From: Gemmatimonas sp.
Lineage (GTDB): Bacteria; Gemmatimonadota; Gemmatimonadetes; Gemmatimonadales; Gemmatimonadaceae
NCBI GenBank assembly: GCA_013822425.1
Contig: PNKL01000026.1
Location: 1 to 34,183, forward strand
DNA length: 34,183 nucleotides
Direction: 5' to 3'
Part shown: piece by piece, positions 6,038 through 21,164 of the stretch
How positions within the stretch are numbered: the first letter of the stretch is position 1
How the letters are laid out: each line of letters opens with the position of its first letter
Notes under the pieces: model-generated
What the model saw: only the letters and a program-made list of their open reading frames with translations
What the model was told of the DNA's origin: nothing
Database searches by the model: none
Made by a program: the position numbers and the translations under genes

Positions 6038-6168
6038 GATTGACGCTCGGCTGACGTCATGCGTGAACAGTCCCGCGTGCCCATGGCTTGCCTCCACATC
6101 TATCGGGCCGCTCGCGCATCGCGTGGGCTGTGCCCCAGATTCTCCGGCGTGCCGCTGACCCACCGATC

Positions 6169-9100
6169 GTGAGTTCCCTCAAGCTGGTGCCTGCCGAGGT
6201 CGCAGCGGCCACCCCGATTCCCGGGCCGACGCTTCACGTCCTCGGCCGATTGGAACTTGTCGCCGCCCACGGCACCGTCCTGCTCGGACCCGGGAAGCCG
6301 CTCGCGCTGCTCGCGTACCTGCGCGCGCAGTCCATGCACTCGGCGACGCGGCCTCACCTCGTGGATCTGCTCTGGTCCGATCTCGAGCCGGAACGGGCGC
6401 GTGCCAACGTCCGGCAGACGCTGCTGGTGCTGCGGCGCCTGCTCCCGGGTGACACGATTGTCTCGGATGGCGATCAGGTGGTGCTGCGCGGGGAGCTCGC
6501 GTTCGATCGCGACGCGTTTGTGGCTGCGGTAGATCGCAATGACCTGCCGGCGGCGATCACGCTCTATCGCGGCGACTTCATTCCCGACCTCGCGGTCCCC
6601 GGCGGCGCGGAATTCGAGCTCTGGTGCGACATCGAGCGGCGGCACCTCGGCGCACTCTTCTCCCGCGTGCTCGAGACGGCGGCGCGGGCCGAGCTGGCCG
6701 CCGGCCGCGCCGCGGCGGCGTTGGAGCACGCACGCCGGCTGCGCGACCTCGATCCGTCACGCGAGCGGTCGTGGCGGCTGCTGATCGAGGCAGAGATCTC
6801 CGCCCTGGGCGTCGCGTCGGCTCGGCTCGAAGCCGACCGGCTCGCGGAGCAGCTGCGCGCGGAGAGCCGTCCTCCGGAACCGGCGACGGCGCAGTTGTTT
6901 CAGCGGGTGCGTGAGGTGGCGCGGCCGACGCTGGTGCCGAGCGGCCCGCTGGCAGCGCCGGAATTCGTTGGTCGCGAGACGCAGTTGTCTCGCGTGCTGA
7001 TGTCGTGGGGCATGGTCAAGCGCGGGCGCTGGCAGCACCTGCACGTGGAGGCGCTCGCCGGCACCGGCAAGACCCGCCTGCTCGAAGAGTCATGCGCGCG
7101 CCTGCAGGCCGCGGGCGCCCGCGTGGTGCGCGTCGGCGCGCGGCGCGACGAGCGCGACGTGCCATTCGCGCTCGCGGCGAGTCTCGTGACGGCGCTGGCG
7201 CGGCTTCCGGGCGGCATCGCGGTCGCTCCCGGCTCGATGGCGGCGCTCGTGGCGATGGCGCCCGATGCGTCGGCGGTCTTCACGGCGCATGCCGACCCGT
7301 CCACCGGCGACGAGGCGATGCGCCGGCGCGCGGTGGCGCTCGCTGACCTCCTTGGCGCGGTGGCGAACGAGGCGCCCGTGACGCTGGCGCTCGATGATAC
7401 CCACTGGGCCGACCGTGTCTCGCTGAATATCCTGGCGCTCGCGATGGGTCGCGTCTCCGACGATACTCGGGTGCTGCTGCTCACCGCGGGCCGCGAAGCG
7501 CTTCCGGGCGACACCGGCGTCGAGCACGTCTCGCTGCCGCCCCTGAGCGCGCCACAGGTGGATGCGATGCTCCAGTCCATCGGAGGCGCCGGCGATGCGG
7601 CCTGGTGGGAGACGTTCATCGCGGCGCTGTGCGATGCGGCGCGCGGCGTCCCCTTCCAGGTCTTGCAGCTGTTGCATGCCGTGGTGGAAAAACAGCTGCT
7701 GGTCATCGAGGCGGAAACGTGGACGGCGCCCAATGCTCCCGCGCTGCTCGCGGCGCTCGACGCGCGGGAGGCCGCGACACTTCGCATCGCGCAGCTCTCG
7801 GTGAGCGCGCGCGCCGCGCTGCGCGTGCTCTGCTACGGCACGGTGCCCGACGCCGCGGTCGTCGCGGTCGCAGTCGCCGCCGAGCCTGCAGTAGTGGCCG
7901 CGGACCTGGCGATGTTGGAGGTGCGCGGGTACGCCCGGCGCACGGGGGACGGCGGCTGGGAGGCTGCGCACGACGAGATCTGCGAGTTGGTGCTGGCGCA
8001 GAGCGACGCGGTGTCCATGCGTGCCGCGCAGCGCGGGTTGGCGCTGGCGCTCGCCGCGATCGGCGGCACGACGATGGCGGGGATGCGACGCATCGTGGCG
8101 CTGCTCGTGGAGGCCGAGGCGGACGGAGAGGTCGAGGGCGTGGTGCGGGCATGGGTCCGGAGCGGCGACTGTCCGCCGGTTGGCGTGCAATCGGCCGACC
8201 TGCTTCCGCCCGGCCTGCCGGAAGTTCGGGCTGCGTCGCTGCGGCGCGCGCTGTCCCAATCGCTGCCACGTGCGCGGCGTTCGCATCGAGGACATATCCT
8301 GGCGCTGGCGAGCGTTGTGCTGCTGCTGGTACTGGCGCGGTACGTCACCAAGCCCGCGTCCCTCGTCTTCGTTCAAACGCCGATCGCCACGAACGCCTTC
8401 GACGTTACTGATCGCGCGCCGATTCTCGGTGTGGAGGATCGTCTCGGGCGCCGCCTGCGCGTGTCCGGCGTCCTCGTTCGCGTGCGCGGAACGAAGATTC
8501 CGGGCCCATCCGGGCGATTGTCATCGACGACCCGGGATGGTATCGCCCGGTTCGATTCACTGCTGGTTGGCGGCTCGCCCAGCGAAGTGGGAACGCTTCA
8601 TTTCGAGGCGCACGGACTGTCGTCGGCAATCTGGACCCCTCCGGACGTTGACTCGCCGAGGCTTCAGGTGCGGTCCGGCGTCATGAATGGACAGCCGCTG
8701 CGTGGGGACCTGCCGCGGCTTCACGTGTCGCCTGGGGATCGAATCGAAGGACGCGTCCTGCTCACGTACCACACCGCATGGACCAGTGCGACCGTCTTCC
8801 TCGGAGAGGTGGCTACCTGGGAGCGCCGCGAATCGGACACGGCATCGATACGCTCGCTGGTGACGCCGCTCGACGCGGGCGTGGCACAGGCCATCGTCGG
8901 CCGCGTGGCGCCCTCTCGCCCCGGCCGGTACTTCCTGTTGTGGGCGATGGGGGCTGAAACGCGCGCCGCCTTCCTGTTCTCGCAGACGAACTGGACCTGC
9001 GGCGAGCCGATCTGGCGTGATGGCAACGACCTTCAGGACCTGCCGACGGACTCGATTCTGGCGATTGCGCGCCGCGGGACGTACTCGGGCGTGGGAGTGC

Positions 9101-9192
9101 GATGCCACGAGTTTCGTTCGTATAAGCCGCCGCACGCGGGGCCCACATCGATGGGTATCGCGGCGGTGGAGGTGATCGTCGAGTCGCGGTAG
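6169..9192 (+). CDS. Membrane-tethered SARP/BTAD-NTPase regulator with extracytoplasmic C-terminal domain
   Basis: This appears to be a one-component signalling protein of about 1007 residues. Residues 21-105 resemble the winged-helix DNA-binding domain and 112-255 the BTAD helices of SARP/AfsR regulators (HLVDLLWSDLEPERARANVRQTL, then LYRGDFIPDL). A STAND/AAA-like NTPase follows, with Walker A ALAGTGKT (Lys301, Thr302) and Walker B TLALDDTHW (Asp409, Asp410). At 709-726 lies a single hydrophobic helix preceded by RARRSHR, so by the positive-inside rule the N-terminus is cytoplasmic. The last 280 residues would then be outside the cytoplasm; they are beta-rich-looking and contain only two cysteines (944, 979). 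I do not recognise this domain. The start is uncertain: I chose GTG 6169; GTG 6130 and TTG 6088 are in frame, and none has a ribosome-binding site. The gene stands alone, and its targets cannot be inferred. Confidence 0.85.
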   Translation: MSSLKLVPAEVAAATPIPGPTLHVLGRLELVAAHGTVLLGPGKPLALLAYLRAQSMHSATRPHLVDLLWSDLEPERARANVRQTLLVLRRLLPGDTIVSDGDQVVLRGELAFDRDAFVAAVDRNDLPAAITLYRGDFIPDLAVPGGAEFELWCDIERRHLGALFSRVLETAARAELAAGRAAAALEHARRLRDLDPSRERSWRLLIEAEISALGVASARLEADRLAEQLRAESRPPEPATAQLFQRVREVARPTLVPSGPLAAPEFVGRETQLSRVLMSWGMVKRGRWQHLHVEALAGTGKTRLLEESCARLQAAGARVVRVGARRDERDVPFALAASLVTALARLPGGIAVAPGSMAALVAMAPDASAVFTAHADPSTGDEAMRRRAVALADLLGAVANEAPVTLALDDTHWADRVSLNILALAMGRVSDDTRVLLLTAGREALPGDTGVEHVSLPPLSAPQVDAMLQSIGGAGDAAWWETFIAALCDAARGVPFQVLQLLHAVVEKQLLVIEAETWTAPNAPALLAALDAREAATLRIAQLSVSARAALRVLCYGTVPDAAVVAVAVAAEPAVVAADLAMLEVRGYARRTGDGGWEAAHDEICELVLAQSDAVSMRAAQRGLALALAAIGGTTMAGMRRIVALLVEAEADGEVEGVVRAWVRSGDCPPVGVQSADLLPPGLPEVRAASLRRALSQSLPRARRSHRGHILALASVVLLLVLARYVTKPASLVFVQTPIATNAFDVTDRAPILGVEDRLGRRLRVSGVLVRVRGTKIPGPSGRLSSTTRDGIARFDSLLVGGSPSEVGTLHFEAHGLSSAIWTPPDVDSPRLQVRSGVMNGQPLRGDLPRLHVSPGDRIEGRVLLTYHTAWTSATVFLGEVATWERRESDTASIRSLVTPLDAGVAQAIVGRVAPSRPGRYFLLWAMGAETRAAFLFSQTNWTCGEPIWRDGNDLQDLPTDSILAIARRGTYSGVGVRCHEFRSYKPPHAGPTSMGIAAVEVIVESR

Positions 9193-16164: not shown

Positions 16165-16659
16165 GTGAGCCGCAGCTTGAACAAGGTGACGCTGATCGGG
16201 AACCTCGGGGCTGACCCCGAAATCCGCACGACGCCGAACGGGAGCAAGGTGGCGCAGTTCTCGCTCGCGACCAGCCGGTCGTGGGGCGGGCAGGGCGGGA
16301 GCGAAAAGCAGGAGAAGACCGAGTGGCACAAGTGCGTGGCCTGGAACGGCAAGGGACCCGGCACCGGGCTGGCCGACATCATCGAGCGCTACTGCAAGAA
16401 GGGCGAGAAGCTCTACGTGGAAGGGCGCATCGAGTACCGGCAGTACACGGACAAGGAAGGCCAGGTGAAGTACATCACGGAGATCAACGTCCGCGAGATC
16501 ATGCTGTTGGGCGGCAAGGGCGGCGGTGACTTTGACGGCGGTGCTCCGCCGCGCGCGCGGTCAGCGTCGCCGGCCAAGGGCGGTGCGGCCGCGGCTCCCT
16601 CGGGTGACTTCGAGGAATTCCCGGGCGGGCTCGAGGCGGACGACGACCTGCCGTTCTGA
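16165..16659 (+). CDS. ssb: Single-stranded DNA-binding protein SSB
   Basis: SSB coats single-stranded DNA during replication, repair and recombination. The 164-residue product begins with the OB-fold sequence LNKVTLIGNLGADPEIRTT, continues with TEWHKCVAWN and the YVEGRIEYRQYTDKEGQVKY strand region, and ends in a glycine/alanine/proline-rich linker and the acidic tip DDDLPF, which recruits partner proteins. The start is the GTG at 16165, fixed by a near-perfect AGGAGG (16155-16160) five bases upstream and by the conserved N-terminus. It stands alone with its own promoter. A chromosomal housekeeping SSB is likely, although rimI and an accessory-looking region surround it. Confidence 0.95.
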   Translation: MSRSLNKVTLIGNLGADPEIRTTPNGSKVAQFSLATSRSWGGQGGSEKQEKTEWHKCVAWNGKGPGTGLADIIERYCKKGEKLYVEGRIEYRQYTDKEGQVKYITEINVREIMLLGGKGGGDFDGGAPPRARSASPAKGGAAAAPSGDFEEFPGGLEADDDLPF

Positions 16660-16732
16660 TACCCCACCTCTTTCCAGTGTTACGTCACGCGGGAGTCGCC
16701 GAGCGTAAATAGGACGAATGCCAGCGTGATCA

Positions 16733-16785
16733 CAGAACGACAGGTGGCCACCTCTATAGGAGTGGACCGTCTGTCGTTCTGTTTT
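16733..16785 (+). terminator. Rho-independent terminator downstream of ssb
   Basis: CAGAACGACAG (16733-16743) pairs perfectly with CTGTCGTTCTG (16771-16781), with a partly self-complementary apical region (CCACCTC-TATA-GGAGTGG), followed by TTTT (16782-16785). It ends transcription from ssb or marks the left edge of the low-GC island. Confidence 0.7.
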
Positions 16786-17158: not shown

Positions 17159-20100
17159 GTGACACCTCGCCCCGGAATCCGCATGCTGGCCGCAGCCACC
17201 GCCCTTGCACTCCTTGCACTCTTGATCGTCGCATGTCGAGAGATCACGGCGCCCGAAGCAATCCAGAAGCCAAGCGGAGCGAAGGCATCGCTGCTGAACC
17301 CGAGCGGGCTCGTGGTCGTGTACCCCGACAGCATGCGCGGTTGGGTGTTCTACAACGACCAGACGAACGCTGTGTGTCCGACCGGCTCCGCCTGTCGCAT
17401 GGTGCAGGGACCGACGACCCCGCCGCTCGGCTCGGGCAGCGCCGAGTTGTACGACTCGCTTACGACCGACGGAAAGGCGCTCATCCTCGCAGACTACGCC
17501 GGAACCCGGTTCGACCAGCTCACGGACCTCCGGTACTCCACCTATCGCCAGACCGTGAACATCGGCAACAACCTGGCGATTTCGTTGCAATTCAATGTGG
17601 ACTACGATCTGGGCGACGCGGCGACGGGCTACCAGGGACGCCTCGTCTTCGAACCCTACGTTGGGATCGGGGGAAACGTCCCGCAGAATACGTGGCAGAC
17701 GTGGGACGCGAAGGCGGGAAAGTGGTGGGGCACAAGATCCACCGTCACACGGAATGGTGCGTCTGTCGCCAACCCGTGCGTGCAGGCCACGCCGTGTACG
17801 TGGGCGCAGGTGCTCGCCGCATTCCCAAGTGTCGGTGTTCACACACTGTACGGAGCGGTCGTTCTGAAGGCGGGATCGGGCTGGCCAGGGTTCCGAGGGA
17901 ACGTCGACAGTCTGACGATCGCCGTTGCTGGTGTCGCGACGACATTTGATTTCGAGAGTGCCGCACCCGTCACTGTCCCCGCGACGGCTCCGACCCAGCC
18001 ACCGCTCGCCCTGTTGGACCCGGTCAGAATTCTCCAGAATCCGGATTCGCTCGGCGTGGCCGTCTTCGCGGACCTCATCGAGGTGCAGTTTGTAGTCGGG
18101 GCAAGCGTTGCTGAGCGGAGCGCGGCGATTGGGGCTGTTGGTGGCACCGTTGTCGGCGGCGTTGAAACTAACGGACCGGAGGGCGTTTATTCAGTGCAAC
18201 TCCCGTCCGATCCATCTGGAGCGACGATGCTACGCGCCATTCGCGGCCTCCGTTCGCGAGCTTCGGTTGCGATGGCGCGCGTGGAGTGGGCTCTGCAGGA
18301 TGCGCTCGCATACAGGCGCCCGAATGAAGGGCAAGGCCTTTCACAGAGCGACTGGGTGCTCGACCCGAATGCTGCGTTCGCGGCGCCGGATGCGCCGTGG
18401 GCCGCCAGCGCTGCGGCTGCTCCCTTCGCTTGGGGCTGCGCAACCGGAGCAGGCACGACTTCAGCAGTGCTGGACATGGGACTCGCCGCGAATGCAGAGT
18501 TTGCGGGGAGGCTTGACGCTCGCTCAATCCTGACGCCCGCCGAGAACGCGGTCTACCTGCGCCATGGCCAGGCCGTCGCCTCCGTTCTTGGCGCAACCGC
18601 TAACAATGGAGTGGGCGTCGCGGGGATTGCCCATGAGACCAGACTCTTGCTTCTGGACATCGCGGTCACTCATCCGAGTACAGGCCGCATTCGTCCGAAT
18701 GCGACAGGCTTCCCAGTAGCGAGTCCGTTACTCCTAGGTGCGGCATGGAGTCGTCTTGCCAGCGCTCGTCCTCGGGTCATCAACGTGTCCCTCGGCGGTG
18801 CGACCGCTCCCAACCACGCGACAGACTCGACGTATCGCGACTTCGCGAGCCAGATGAAGTTCACGATCGAGTCCGACAGCAGTTGGGATCCGATCTTCGT
18901 CATCGCGGCTGGAAACGCGACGTCAGCGGGACGTCACGATTGGGGCATCTTTGGGGCTTTGCGCGACAGTATGCCGGACCGCGTGCTAGTGGTTGGTGCT
19001 GCCGCCCGAGCGCGTCATCAGCGCGCATCATTCACGAGTTCGGGTGGCATCGTTGATATCTACGCTCCCGGAATGAGTGTCGCCACGTATGATTCGCTTT
19101 CCGGTCGGGGCAGCAGCGAAGGCACGTCCTTCGCCGCACCCTTCGTCGCAGGTGCGGCGGCGCTCCTCCTTTCGTTCGACCCACGCTTGACGTCGTCGCA
19201 AGTGCGTGCAATCCTCCTCTCGGGTGCCGATTCCGCGCGATCAGTGGATGGCCGGCCGTTCGTCGACGCCTACGGCTCATTGCGTGAGGCGAGCCGCCGC
19301 CCTGGCGCTCCTCTCTGTGGAGTGCGGACATGGGTGACGGACGCTGGTGACTTCACAGTCCAGCGCGCGACATCCAACGAGTCGGTCTTCTCCTTGCAGG
19401 TTGGCGACTGGGACGCGACGTACGTGAACGTGCACCACGGGGGCAAGCGTATTGAGACGGCGTTCTATCAGCGGTTCGTTTGGGCGAACGGGTCGTGGTC
19501 GTCCGGCGATTGGCAAGGGGATGCGACGGCGGACTACTCAGGGAGCTTCAAGGGCTCTGGTGCGTACTTCCAGGATCACGACGACACATTCTCGAGCATT
19601 GTCCGGCGGACGTTGGCTCCTTCGGGAATCACGATCCACGCGGAACGCCGCCCACTGAATGGCGGCGGTGCTATCTCAACGCCCGACGTCGAAGTGTCGC
19701 TGACACTCCCTAGCGCACTTGGACTAATCTGCGTTCGTGAGTCGCGAGACACGACGAATGCGGGTTCAGAATATCAATGCGGGCAGCAGAGCGACTCGGG
19801 GCGAGCCACGAACGTCCGCGACATGCCGGGCGGTGGGGTGGACTACAACGCGCTTCACGCACTCGATCCGCGCGGAGCGTTTGTAGTGGTGCCAGTCGTC
19901 TTGCGGAGGGCTGTGCAACTGTACAGCGTCAACTGGCGTCCCTGCACTGGCACTGATAGCCTTCATTTTCCAGGCATCCGGTGTCGAGCGCCAATGGCGG
20001 ACAGCGTTCTGACCACCGAAACGAAACTCGTGATAATCGACCTTGCCACGGGCAGCGCCGCGACTTACTCGTTGCCGGCCTCCGGCGACCTTGCGGTGCC

Positions 20101-20353
20101 ACTTGAAGCCAATTGGCTGGCGATCACAGAGGATGGCAGGGAATTAATCGTCCAAGCCTCGGGGTACAAAAGAATCAGCGGTGCGACTGGGTGCATTGCG
20201 CCGAAGCATCTGTGGTTGCCATTGGGAGGGCCAAGCGGGACTTTGGCTGCGAGTTTCGAAGTGTCGCTGAACTCTGACGCGCTGTGTGTAGGTCTGCTTG
20301 ATGGAGCGGCTTCACTTCGAACGGGCGCGGCTCGAGCTTCGAGGCATCCATAA
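17159..20353 (+). CDS. Secreted lipid-anchored subtilisin-family (S8) serine protease, multidomain
   Basis: The 1064-residue product starts at GTG 17159, with GAGGAG about nine bases upstream. It has a lipoprotein signal ending IVAC (Cys26). Residues 49-265 form a beta-rich domain with a TWQTWDAKAGKWWGT signature that I recall from other secreted proteins but cannot name. Residues 309-378 resemble an I9/fervidolysin-type pro-domain (VEVQFV-like start, VVGG, LR repeats). The catalytic domain (about 430-705) has an intact triad: Asp439 in SAVLDMG, His469 in LRHGQAVASVLGA, Ser657 in GTSFAAPFVAGAAALL, with oxyanion Asn586 in VIAAGN and VINVSLGG before it. About 360 C-terminal residues are unassigned. 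Base composition is lower in GC than the neighbours. Its stop overlaps the next start (TAATG). It is probably active outside the cytoplasm; its substrate is unknown. Confidence 0.88.
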   Translation: MTPRPGIRMLAAATALALLALLIVACREITAPEAIQKPSGAKASLLNPSGLVVVYPDSMRGWVFYNDQTNAVCPTGSACRMVQGPTTPPLGSGSAELYDSLTTDGKALILADYAGTRFDQLTDLRYSTYRQTVNIGNNLAISLQFNVDYDLGDAATGYQGRLVFEPYVGIGGNVPQNTWQTWDAKAGKWWGTRSTVTRNGASVANPCVQATPCTWAQVLAAFPSVGVHTLYGAVVLKAGSGWPGFRGNVDSLTIAVAGVATTFDFESAAPVTVPATAPTQPPLALLDPVRILQNPDSLGVAVFADLIEVQFVVGASVAERSAAIGAVGGTVVGGVETNGPEGVYSVQLPSDPSGATMLRAIRGLRSRASVAMARVEWALQDALAYRRPNEGQGLSQSDWVLDPNAAFAAPDAPWAASAAAAPFAWGCATGAGTTSAVLDMGLAANAEFAGRLDARSILTPAENAVYLRHGQAVASVLGATANNGVGVAGIAHETRLLLLDIAVTHPSTGRIRPNATGFPVASPLLLGAAWSRLASARPRVINVSLGGATAPNHATDSTYRDFASQMKFTIESDSSWDPIFVIAAGNATSAGRHDWGIFGALRDSMPDRVLVVGAAARARHQRASFTSSGGIVDIYAPGMSVATYDSLSGRGSSEGTSFAAPFVAGAAALLLSFDPRLTSSQVRAILLSGADSARSVDGRPFVDAYGSLREASRRPGAPLCGVRTWVTDAGDFTVQRATSNESVFSLQVGDWDATYVNVHHGGKRIETAFYQRFVWANGSWSSGDWQGDATADYSGSFKGSGAYFQDHDDTFSSIVRRTLAPSGITIHAERRPLNGGGAISTPDVEVSLTLPSALGLICVRESRDTTNAGSEYQCGQQSDSGRATNVRDMPGGGVDYNALHALDPRGAFVVVPVVLRRAVQLYSVNWRPCTGTDSLHFPGIRCRAPMADSVLTTETKLVIIDLATGSAATYSLPASGDLAVPLEANWLAITEDGRELIVQASGYKRISGATGCIAPKHLWLPLGGPSGTLAASFEVSLNSDALCVGLLDGAASLRTGAARASRHP

Positions 20354-21057
20354 TGCTCAAACCTATTCGACTATGCTCGTTCATCGGCCTTCTTGCTGTG
20401 ACGTCGACCGCATGCGCGCAGTCCCCGTCGCGGCAGCGCGAAATCGCCATACTGTCGATTCCCTGCGCAGGACGTGTCGTGGTGCGGAATGACACTCGGA
20501 GCGGCGAGTGGGCGGACGTGAAAGTAGCTGGAAAGAGCCAGCGGGTTTACGTAAGCGCTGACACCAGCGGTGTCTCGTACACGGCTACGACGCTTTTCCT
20601 GGGCGACTCCGGCGATACGGTCGAAGTGGTCTGGCGCGGTCGACGAATCTCGTCCGTGGTCCCCGGTATCAGTTGCTTCGACGTGCCACAGGAACCGCCG
20701 TCGAACTACCCGGTCGATCAAGGGGTGCTCGTCGGCAACCTTGCTCGCGGTGTGCCTGATGGCGACGTCGTGCCAGGCCTCTTGCTCGTGCAGTTCGTGC
20801 CGGAGGCGACCTACGAGCAGCGTGCGAACCTAATTCGGTCCGTCCACGCGCAAGTGGTCGGCGGCATACCAGAGCCGACTCCTGGGTACGTGTTGCTTGT
20901 TCCGGACGACTCGCTGGGTACGCGCGTAAAGGCATTGCACGCGGAACTGCGGCACTCGCCCCTGGTTAGACGCGTCAGCCACGATCGGCTACTGCCAAGT
21001 CCCGGAGAGGACTGGCGATCAGGCGCGCGGCGCAGCGACAGAAAACCGACATCGTGA
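20353..21057 (+). CDS. Secreted partner protein carrying a stand-alone subtilase pro-domain (I9-like)
   Basis: This 234-residue protein has a signal peptide (CSFIGLLAVTSTACAQ, cleavage probably after Ala22; lipidation at Cys21 is less likely because the lipobox is poor). Residues 35-115 look like a small beta domain. Residues 146-214 align with the pro-domain of the upstream protease: both read VQFV..A....RA..I..V...VVGG, then G.Y/V...VP-D..G, then an LR-containing helix. The catalytic domain that normally follows such a pro-domain is absent; the protein ends after a charged tail. Its ATG overlaps the protease stop (TAATG), so translation is coupled. By analogy with I9 pro-domains it could inhibit or fold the protease. 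Alternatively it is the remnant of a second, truncated subtilase. Confidence 0.75.
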   Translation: MLKPIRLCSFIGLLAVTSTACAQSPSRQREIAILSIPCAGRVVVRNDTRSGEWADVKVAGKSQRVYVSADTSGVSYTATTLFLGDSGDTVEVVWRGRRISSVVPGISCFDVPQEPPSNYPVDQGVLVGNLARGVPDGDVVPGLLLVQFVPEATYEQRANLIRSVHAQVVGGIPEPTPGYVLLVPDDSLGTRVKALHAELRHSPLVRRVSHDRLLPSPGEDWRSGARRSDRKPTS

Positions 21058-21109: not shown

Positions 21110-21138
21110 CAGAACGGAAGTAGGATAGTTCCGTTCTG
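21110..21138 (+). terminator. Hairpin after the protease/partner pair
   Basis: CAGAACGGAA (21110-21119) and TTCCGTTCTG (21129-21138) form a perfect 10-bp stem with a nine-base loop, 53 bases after the partner's stop. No U-tract follows. Its outer stem sequence (CAGAACG/CGTTCTG) is the same as that of the terminator at 16733-16785. Confidence 0.5.
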
Positions 21139-21164
21139 AGTCCGACGCTCCACTCTGGGCTTCA

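Follow-up and report, generated by a model that had tools for sequence, protein, structure and literature searches.

In Streptococcus pyogenes, the protease SpeB is inhibited by Spi, a propeptide analogue encoded by an adjacent, co-transcribed gene (Kagawa 2005, as cited in PMC2873492). SUB1-ProM of Plasmodium is a stand-alone, secreted protein that resembles a subtilisin propeptide; its gene lies beside those of subtilases, and it is a potent and selective inhibitor (PMC6993865). POIA1 and SPI-1 are experimentally shown inhibitors of the same kind (PMC6993865). A secreted protease with the gene of its cognate inhibitor adjacent is also known from the Tannerella potempin/KLIKK and the staphopain/staphostatin systems, where the inhibitor is often a lipoprotein (PMC7296668, PMC2873492); staphostatins are lipocalin-like (PMC2873492). 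Here we describe a pair of overlapping genes on contig PNKL01000026.1 of Gemmatimonas sp. (assembly GCA_013822425.1), of which we analysed positions 1 to 34,183, hereafter the window. The first gene encodes a predicted subtilase, P0001, and the second an apparently secreted protein, P0002, which ends in a domain related to subtilase pro-domains and contains no protease sequence. That P0002 acts as a trans-acting, propeptide-like subtilase inhibitor has, in our estimate, a probability of about 0.5.

As in the SpeB-Spi pair, a bacterial secreted protease is here accompanied by an adjacent gene for a free-standing propeptide-like protein (PMC2873492). However, SpeB is a C10 cysteine protease of an unrelated family, whereas the window combines an S8 subtilase with a Fervidolysin_NPro-like module, and inhibition is here predicted only. 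P0002 shares with SUB1-ProM that it is a stand-alone secreted propeptide-like protein encoded next to a subtilase, but SUB1-ProM is eukaryotic and sits in a conserved syntenic locus, whereas P0002 belongs to a non-conserved bacterial cassette and has an extra N-terminal domain. A propeptide fold without a protease, as predicted for P0002, is also found in the stand-alone inhibitors of MEROPS I9 (POIA1, the yeast peptidase B inhibitor and Arabidopsis SPI-1) and in TgMIC5. Unlike the POIA1/SPI-1 group, P0002 has no Pfam I9 match, carries the extra N-terminal domain and a secretion signal, and has relatives with 2-5 tandem modules. The potempin/KLIKK and staphopain/staphostatin inhibitors are not described as pro-domain homologues, unlike the P0002 module. 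The closest Pfam family, PF22148 (Fervidolysin_NPro-like), is known as an enzyme pro-domain and here also occurs free-standing and in tandem. The preliminary description of this locus knew of no named arrangement of this sort, which is too strong given the precedents of SpeB-Spi (PMC2873492) and SUB1-ProM (PMC6993865). In a limited search of the open-access literature, stand-alone propeptide inhibitors of subtilases were described from eukaryotes and none from bacteria; we regard P0002 as a new bacterial variant of the stand-alone propeptide-like proteins.

The subtilase and its free-standing partner

The two genes and their parts are the following.

17159..20353, + strand: subtilase gene P0001, 1064 amino acids; GTG start, GAGGAG upstream, TAA stop
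18053..18292, + strand: internal pro-domain of P0001, residues 299-378, followed by ...QDALAY385 / RRPNEG
18458..19234, + strand: Peptidase S8 catalytic domain of P0001 (PF00082, triad Asp439/His469/Ser657 plus Asn586)
20351..20355, + strand: TAATG, stop/start codon overlap of the P0001 and P0002 genes, read from the sequence
20353..21057, + strand: partner gene P0002, 234 amino acids; from N- to C-terminus a signal peptide, a beta-domain with two Cys, the free-standing pro-domain and a short tail
20449..20691, + strand: N-terminal beta-domain of P0002, residues ~33-113, Cys38/Cys108 (profile match)
20761..20994, + strand: free-standing pro-domain module of P0002, residues 137-214 (profile match, AlphaFold fragment, POIA1 structural match)
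20983..21054, + strand: C-terminal tail of P0002, DRLLPSPGEDWRSGARRSDRKPTS (tail comparison, structural alignment)

Residues 302-361 of P0001 and 139-195 of P0002 are 35% identical (BLASTP, E 5e-4 for that single comparison). The local alignment of the pro-domain with P0002 scored above all 5000 of 5000 shuffled sequences, and the alignment of the whole proteins above 1997 of 2000. In a non-circular test, a profile made only from pro-domain modules of subtilases from other genomes gave 61.7 bits for P0001 and 51.3 bits for residues 137-212 of P0002, where the best of 2000 P0002 shuffles reached 12.4. These sequence comparisons show the C-terminal domain of P0002 to be a homologue of the pro-domains found in this group of subtilases. 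Pfam found no S8 domain in the P0002 frame, and inspection by eye of the following 380 bp revealed no remnant of one. Whole-protein searches of Pfam and NCBIfam gave no match in P0002 and no pro-domain in P0001, searches of PDB sequences, made with P0002 or the module profile as query, returned nothing or chance matches, and a search of viral contigs with P0002 gave no match.

In P0001, residues 434-692 match PF00082 (Pfam search, E 1e-25) and the catalytic residues are in place: Asp439 (AVLDMG), His469 (RHGQ), Ser657 (GTSFAAP) and the oxyanion Asn586 (AAGN). By domain, triad and oxyanion Asn, P0001 is an S8 subtilase; the source genome encodes five further S8 enzymes. Its layout comprises a lipobox-type signal (IVAC, Cys26), an N-terminal domain (~45-270), the pro-domain (~299-378), the S8 domain (434-692) and a C-terminal region (~750-1050). 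The BPN' propeptide ends in AHAY, of which the QDALAY before RRPNEG is reminiscent, and by this analogy ...QDALAY385 / RRPNEG is the putative junction of pro-domain and enzyme. Parts of P0001 also occur elsewhere. A 260-residue open reading frame of a congener (L010, G005:C21, 1246-2028) resembles residues 894-1045 of the C-terminal region (34%) and has no protease or pro-domain, and this type of C-terminal part also exists alone. A protein of L014 (JAIFWO010000014.1, 5962-7488) has an N-terminal domain 62% identical to P0001 residues 21-266; the record is labelled Candidatus Parcubacteria, and the contig is possibly misbinned.

The hydrophobic signal of P0002 ends in ...VTSTACAQ, and the protein is intact and, as judged from its sequence, apparently secreted. 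Its N-terminal domain scored 15.4 bits against a profile built without P0002 (best of 2000 shuffles, 7.4), and this two-Cys type is common to the protease-free proteins of loci L065, L067, L137 and L141 and to the N-terminus of the subtilase L049. A tail of 20-odd residues, beginning SHDRLLPSPGEDWRSG, is retained. The structural alignment with POIA1 and the BPN' prosegment extends into this tail, which runs beyond the point where a propeptide enters the active-site cleft and then ends. The TAATG overlap makes translational coupling of the two genes likely, and they may be co-transcribed. These results bear out the preliminary description where it saw an S8 protease with an intact triad and an internal pro-domain (PF00082, residues checked), coupled through TAATG to a secreted protein with a pro-domain-like C-terminal part (signal; 51.3 bits against 12.4 for shuffles). 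With an intact partner, a homologous domain and a predicted propeptide/POIA1-like fold, the locus can fairly be read as a protease accompanied by a pro-domain that is made separately.

The same description took P0002 for a free-standing copy of the pro-domain of its own protease. In the module tree, the rows nearest to P0002 are the subtilases L066 and L069, and constraining P0002 with P0001 costs 24 log units (approximately unbiased test, AU p 0.067), so that a sister relationship of the two modules appears disfavoured. The N-terminal domains also differ, being of the two-Cys type in P0002 and a different domain of ~230 residues in P0001. On the tree, the N-terminal domain and the ~30% identity of the modules, we rejected duplication of the P0001 pro-domain as the likeliest origin of P0002.

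Domain family and predicted fold

Module profiles were built from 10 modules (A1) and then from 35 (A2). Profile searches placed the pro-domain module in 25/295 genomes of the class, 27/179 of the family and 36/370 of the phylum, in samples that overlap. PF22148 is matched by 19/35 module members (Pfam, best 2.7e-6), a weak family placement. The P0001 module reaches E 0.031 and 15.1 bits, the cut-off being 21; both window copies lie below it, and a scan of the source genome with PF22148 alone gave no match and missed both. Pfam Inhibitor_I9 matched neither P0001 nor P0002 nor any of the 35 modules. By these profile comparisons the module is nearer to Fervidolysin_NPro-like than to I9, and the label I9-like, given to the pro-domain in the preliminary description, should be corrected accordingly.

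Residues 120-220 of P0002 were modelled by AlphaFold from two sequences only. The model has a predicted local distance difference test score (pLDDT) of ~85 in the domain and the order strand-helix-strand-strand-helix-strand, the topology expected; the model of full-length P0002 is poor (pLDDT 38). The best VIA-align match of the fragment was POIA1 bound to subtilisin BPN' (Z 7.7, 70 residues, 2.5 A), with pro-subtilisin E, the BPN' prosegment and the PCSK1 prodomain near it in the ranking. A Foldseek search with the fragment gave no significant E-value. The model is consistent with a propeptide/POIA1-like fold. The expectation that the partner would model as an I9/fervidolysin fold was borne out in topology and in the first rank of POIA1, but not in the Foldseek E-value nor in the Z score, which unrelated folds share.

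Protease-free relatives in other genomes

Among the open reading frames around the module matches, ~20 genes have the module fused to a subtilase, and about as many are free of a protease. Proteins of the latter type that end in the module recur in ~20 genomes, with 1-5 modules each. One-module proteins include those of loci L052, L057, L059, L060, L061, L064, L067 and L120; two modules are found in L048, L051 and L065, three in L119, four in L118 and five in L117. The match of L131 (methyltransferase-like by eye) and the weak matches of L128-L130 were left out as chance or distant, and the free-standing count excludes fragments at contig ends (L055, L063, L070, L140). Over 389 residues, the protein of L048 and the pre-catalytic part of P0001 share 38.6% identity (E 2e-61), and the N-terminal domain of L120 is, by eye, the same as in the P0001/L048 type. 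By sequence, L048 and L120 are whole subtilase N-terminal parts without the enzyme. Modules are also fused to unrelated N-terminal parts, for example in open frames of 572 and 845 residues of genomes G208 and G247.

Five sets of orthologous protease-free genes are under purifying selection, with omega values of 0.20 (G192/G026), 0.38 (G192/G198), 0.44 (G011/G369), 0.26 (G035/G388) and 0.23 (G030/G368) by the NG86 method, which is rough at these distances. On the module tree, the labels 'alone' and 'S8' require 11 changes, at least 3 of them forced by well-supported branches; conversions between fused and free forms have therefore happened repeatedly. In subtilase-fused proteins, ~10-17 residues come after the module, and most of these proteins then have a Y/W-x-RP-N-D-G-x-GW-like junction ahead of the catalytic domain. 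Many protease-free proteins end 6-43 residues past the module, several of them just after a Y-x-RP-x-DG junction: L048, L057, L117 and L120 end soon after the motif, and others 6-17 residues past the module. These proteins have therefore kept the tail, by which the active site would be blocked.

Both free-standing and subtilase-fused forms occur in G179 and G110. In G179 (loci L051 and L056), a module of a two-module free-standing protein is close to the pro-domain of a subtilase of the same genome (69% amino acid identity over 134 residues, support 100/95); apart from the window pair, these two would by sequence be the strongest candidates for a cognate pair. No examined free-standing locus outside the window has an adjacent subtilase; genomes with free-standing genes that were checked for PF00082 have subtilases on other contigs.

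Several of these loci have features of their own. The five tandem modules of L117 (G012:C58, 6568-8448) lie in a 627-residue open frame without a protease; its signal peptide seems to be in another upstream frame, and a 5' frameshift or an assembly error is possible. L118 (G388:C495, 4931-8527) encodes the four-module protease-free protein, and its relative from another species, L047 (G035:C12, 7408-9262), has three modules, is split over two frames and is decaying or misassembled. L137 (G208:C1, 7042-10308) encodes two protease-free proteins with C-terminal modules (open frames of 572 and 193 residues) on the same strand ~1 kb apart, the larger with the P0002-type two-Cys domain. In L054 (G245:C5, 4533-10691), two subtilases of this group lie in tandem; they are 59% identical, and both have a pro-domain of their own.

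Insertion of the pair, proposed function and rival explanations

A short direct repeat flanks the pair in the window.

16651..16659, + strand: CCGTTCTGA, left copy, at the ssb stop codon; flanks the species-specific insert
21131..21139, + strand: CCGTTCTGA, right copy, right flank of the insert; the sister-species sequence resumes here

Congeners keep the order TsaB-RimI-SSB-lipoprotein-LysM wherever sequence covers the locus, with a gap of a few hundred bases or less between SSB and lipoprotein, and the pair is in none of them. In the window, the pair makes up a 4.4-kb insert that directly follows the stop codon of ssb and has the repeat at each end. The GC content of third codon positions (GC3) is 0.70 in the P0002 gene and 0.69 in the P0001 gene, against 0.82-0.93 in confident neighbour genes. 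As both genes share this low GC3, the pair suggests one recently inserted cassette, and the two genes most likely arrived together. Among loci read from several hundred genomes, the window pair is the only adjacent pair of a free-standing module and a subtilase. With empty sites in congeners and no second adjacent pair, it cannot be called a conserved system. The preliminary description had held that a non-conserved pair with a partner decaying in relatives would point to a truncated subtilase; conservation of the pair is indeed lacking, but the majority of the free-standing relatives have intact genes that evolve under purifying selection.

Other features of the locus lie close by. An imperfect palindrome of ~170 bases (CACCACGGAGCACGG ... 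CGTGCTCCGTGGTG) is found 3' of P0002 (21157-21332), and congeners L132 and L133 have related palindromes between ssb and the lipoprotein gene; the element may be similar to a repetitive extragenic palindrome (REP) or a miniature inverted-repeat transposable element (MITE). A hairpin with 23-nt arms, followed by T-rich sequence, lies after ssb within the species-specific stretch (16732-16782) and could be the ssb terminator. A promoter/terminator scan and Rfam gave nothing above chance. Farther away, downstream of secA, positions 6088-9192 encode a large protein that resembles regulators and contains BTAD and AAA_16 domains.

We propose that P0002 represents a secreted, free-standing pre-pro region of a subtilase, with the subtilase domain order up to the start of the enzyme and no enzyme. 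Once exported, its pro-domain would most likely dock on the catalytic domain of a mature subtilase, and the C-terminal tail would be laid in the active-site cleft and inhibit the enzyme in trans. The P0001 enzyme would be the first candidate target, because P0002 lies directly downstream with overlapping codons and apparently arrived in the same cassette. P0002 would inhibit mature P0001 after cleavage and breakdown of the cis pro-domain, for self-protection at the cell surface or to delay activity. That a pre-pro region made alone is retained for binding subtilase domains, like POIA1, SPI-1 and SUB1-ProM (PMC6993865) and, in another protease class, Spi (PMC2873492), seems the most economical reading, and tandem amplification to 2-5 modules suits a multi-headed binder. 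In its favour are also the homology of the P0002 module to pro-domains of subtilases from other genomes, the recurrence of protease-free proteins under purifying selection, their retained tails and the related modules of G179.

Several observations weigh against inhibition of P0001 by P0002. No orthologue of P0002 was found, hence there is no selection estimate for P0002 itself. The POIA1 match is tied in Z score with unrelated ferredoxin-like proteins, a common fold. The P0002 module is closer to the pro-domains of other subtilases than to that of P0001, which already carries its own cis pro-domain, and most genomes with free-standing modules yielded no subtilase with this pro-domain type and none adjacent, so that a cognate target is not obvious. 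P0002 might instead be a relic, left as a functionless passenger of the cassette when a second subtilase gene was stripped of the parts for its catalytic and C-terminal domains. It is similar to what precedes the catalytic domain in subtilases such as L049 and ends near the enzyme start, it is confined to one species, and some free-standing relatives are clearly broken: the L047 gene, unlike that of L118, is divided over two frames, and L117 has a possible 5' frameshift. We consider this rather unlikely: the frame, signal and coupled start of P0002 are intact, its GC3 equals that of its neighbour (0.70 and 0.69), the downstream 380 bp contain no S8 remnant recognisable by eye, and protease-free relatives are maintained across species (omega 0.20-0.44) and amplified in tandem.

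The tandem arrays of up to five modules without a subtilase nearby, the fusions to unrelated N-terminal parts in G208 and G247, and the free-standing modules in genomes without a fused subtilase would also fit recruitment of the module for general surface binding, or for the inhibition of foreign proteases from competitors or predators, with no relation to the neighbouring subtilase. The conserved junction tail, the subtilase neighbour in the window and the presence of both forms in G179 and G110 make such a recruitment unlikely. Subtilase pro-domains are intramolecular chaperones that can act in trans, as for subtilisin E/BPN', and a coupled position directly after the enzyme gene would suit a trans foldase for P0001 or other subtilases rather than an inhibitor. 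However, P0001 has a complete pro-domain of its own and the genomes of free-standing relatives are mostly without a subtilase of this type, which renders a foldase quite improbable.

Beyond the inhibitor reading of P0002, we tentatively suggest, as a possibility with the odds against it, that free-standing, often tandem pro-domain proteins are secreted inhibitors of subtilases and make up a bacterial family that has gone unrecognised, its members having originated several times from subtilases whose enzyme part was lost. The window would then contain a member and a subtilase, apparently active, that travel together as a protease/protection cassette. The family behind P0002 is more interesting than the single window pair. 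With 1-5 modules, purifying selection and repeated gain and loss of the enzyme part, it would illustrate the path from an intramolecular chaperone to a free inhibitor, and the window and G179 offer natural pairs in which trans inhibition and its specificity can be studied.

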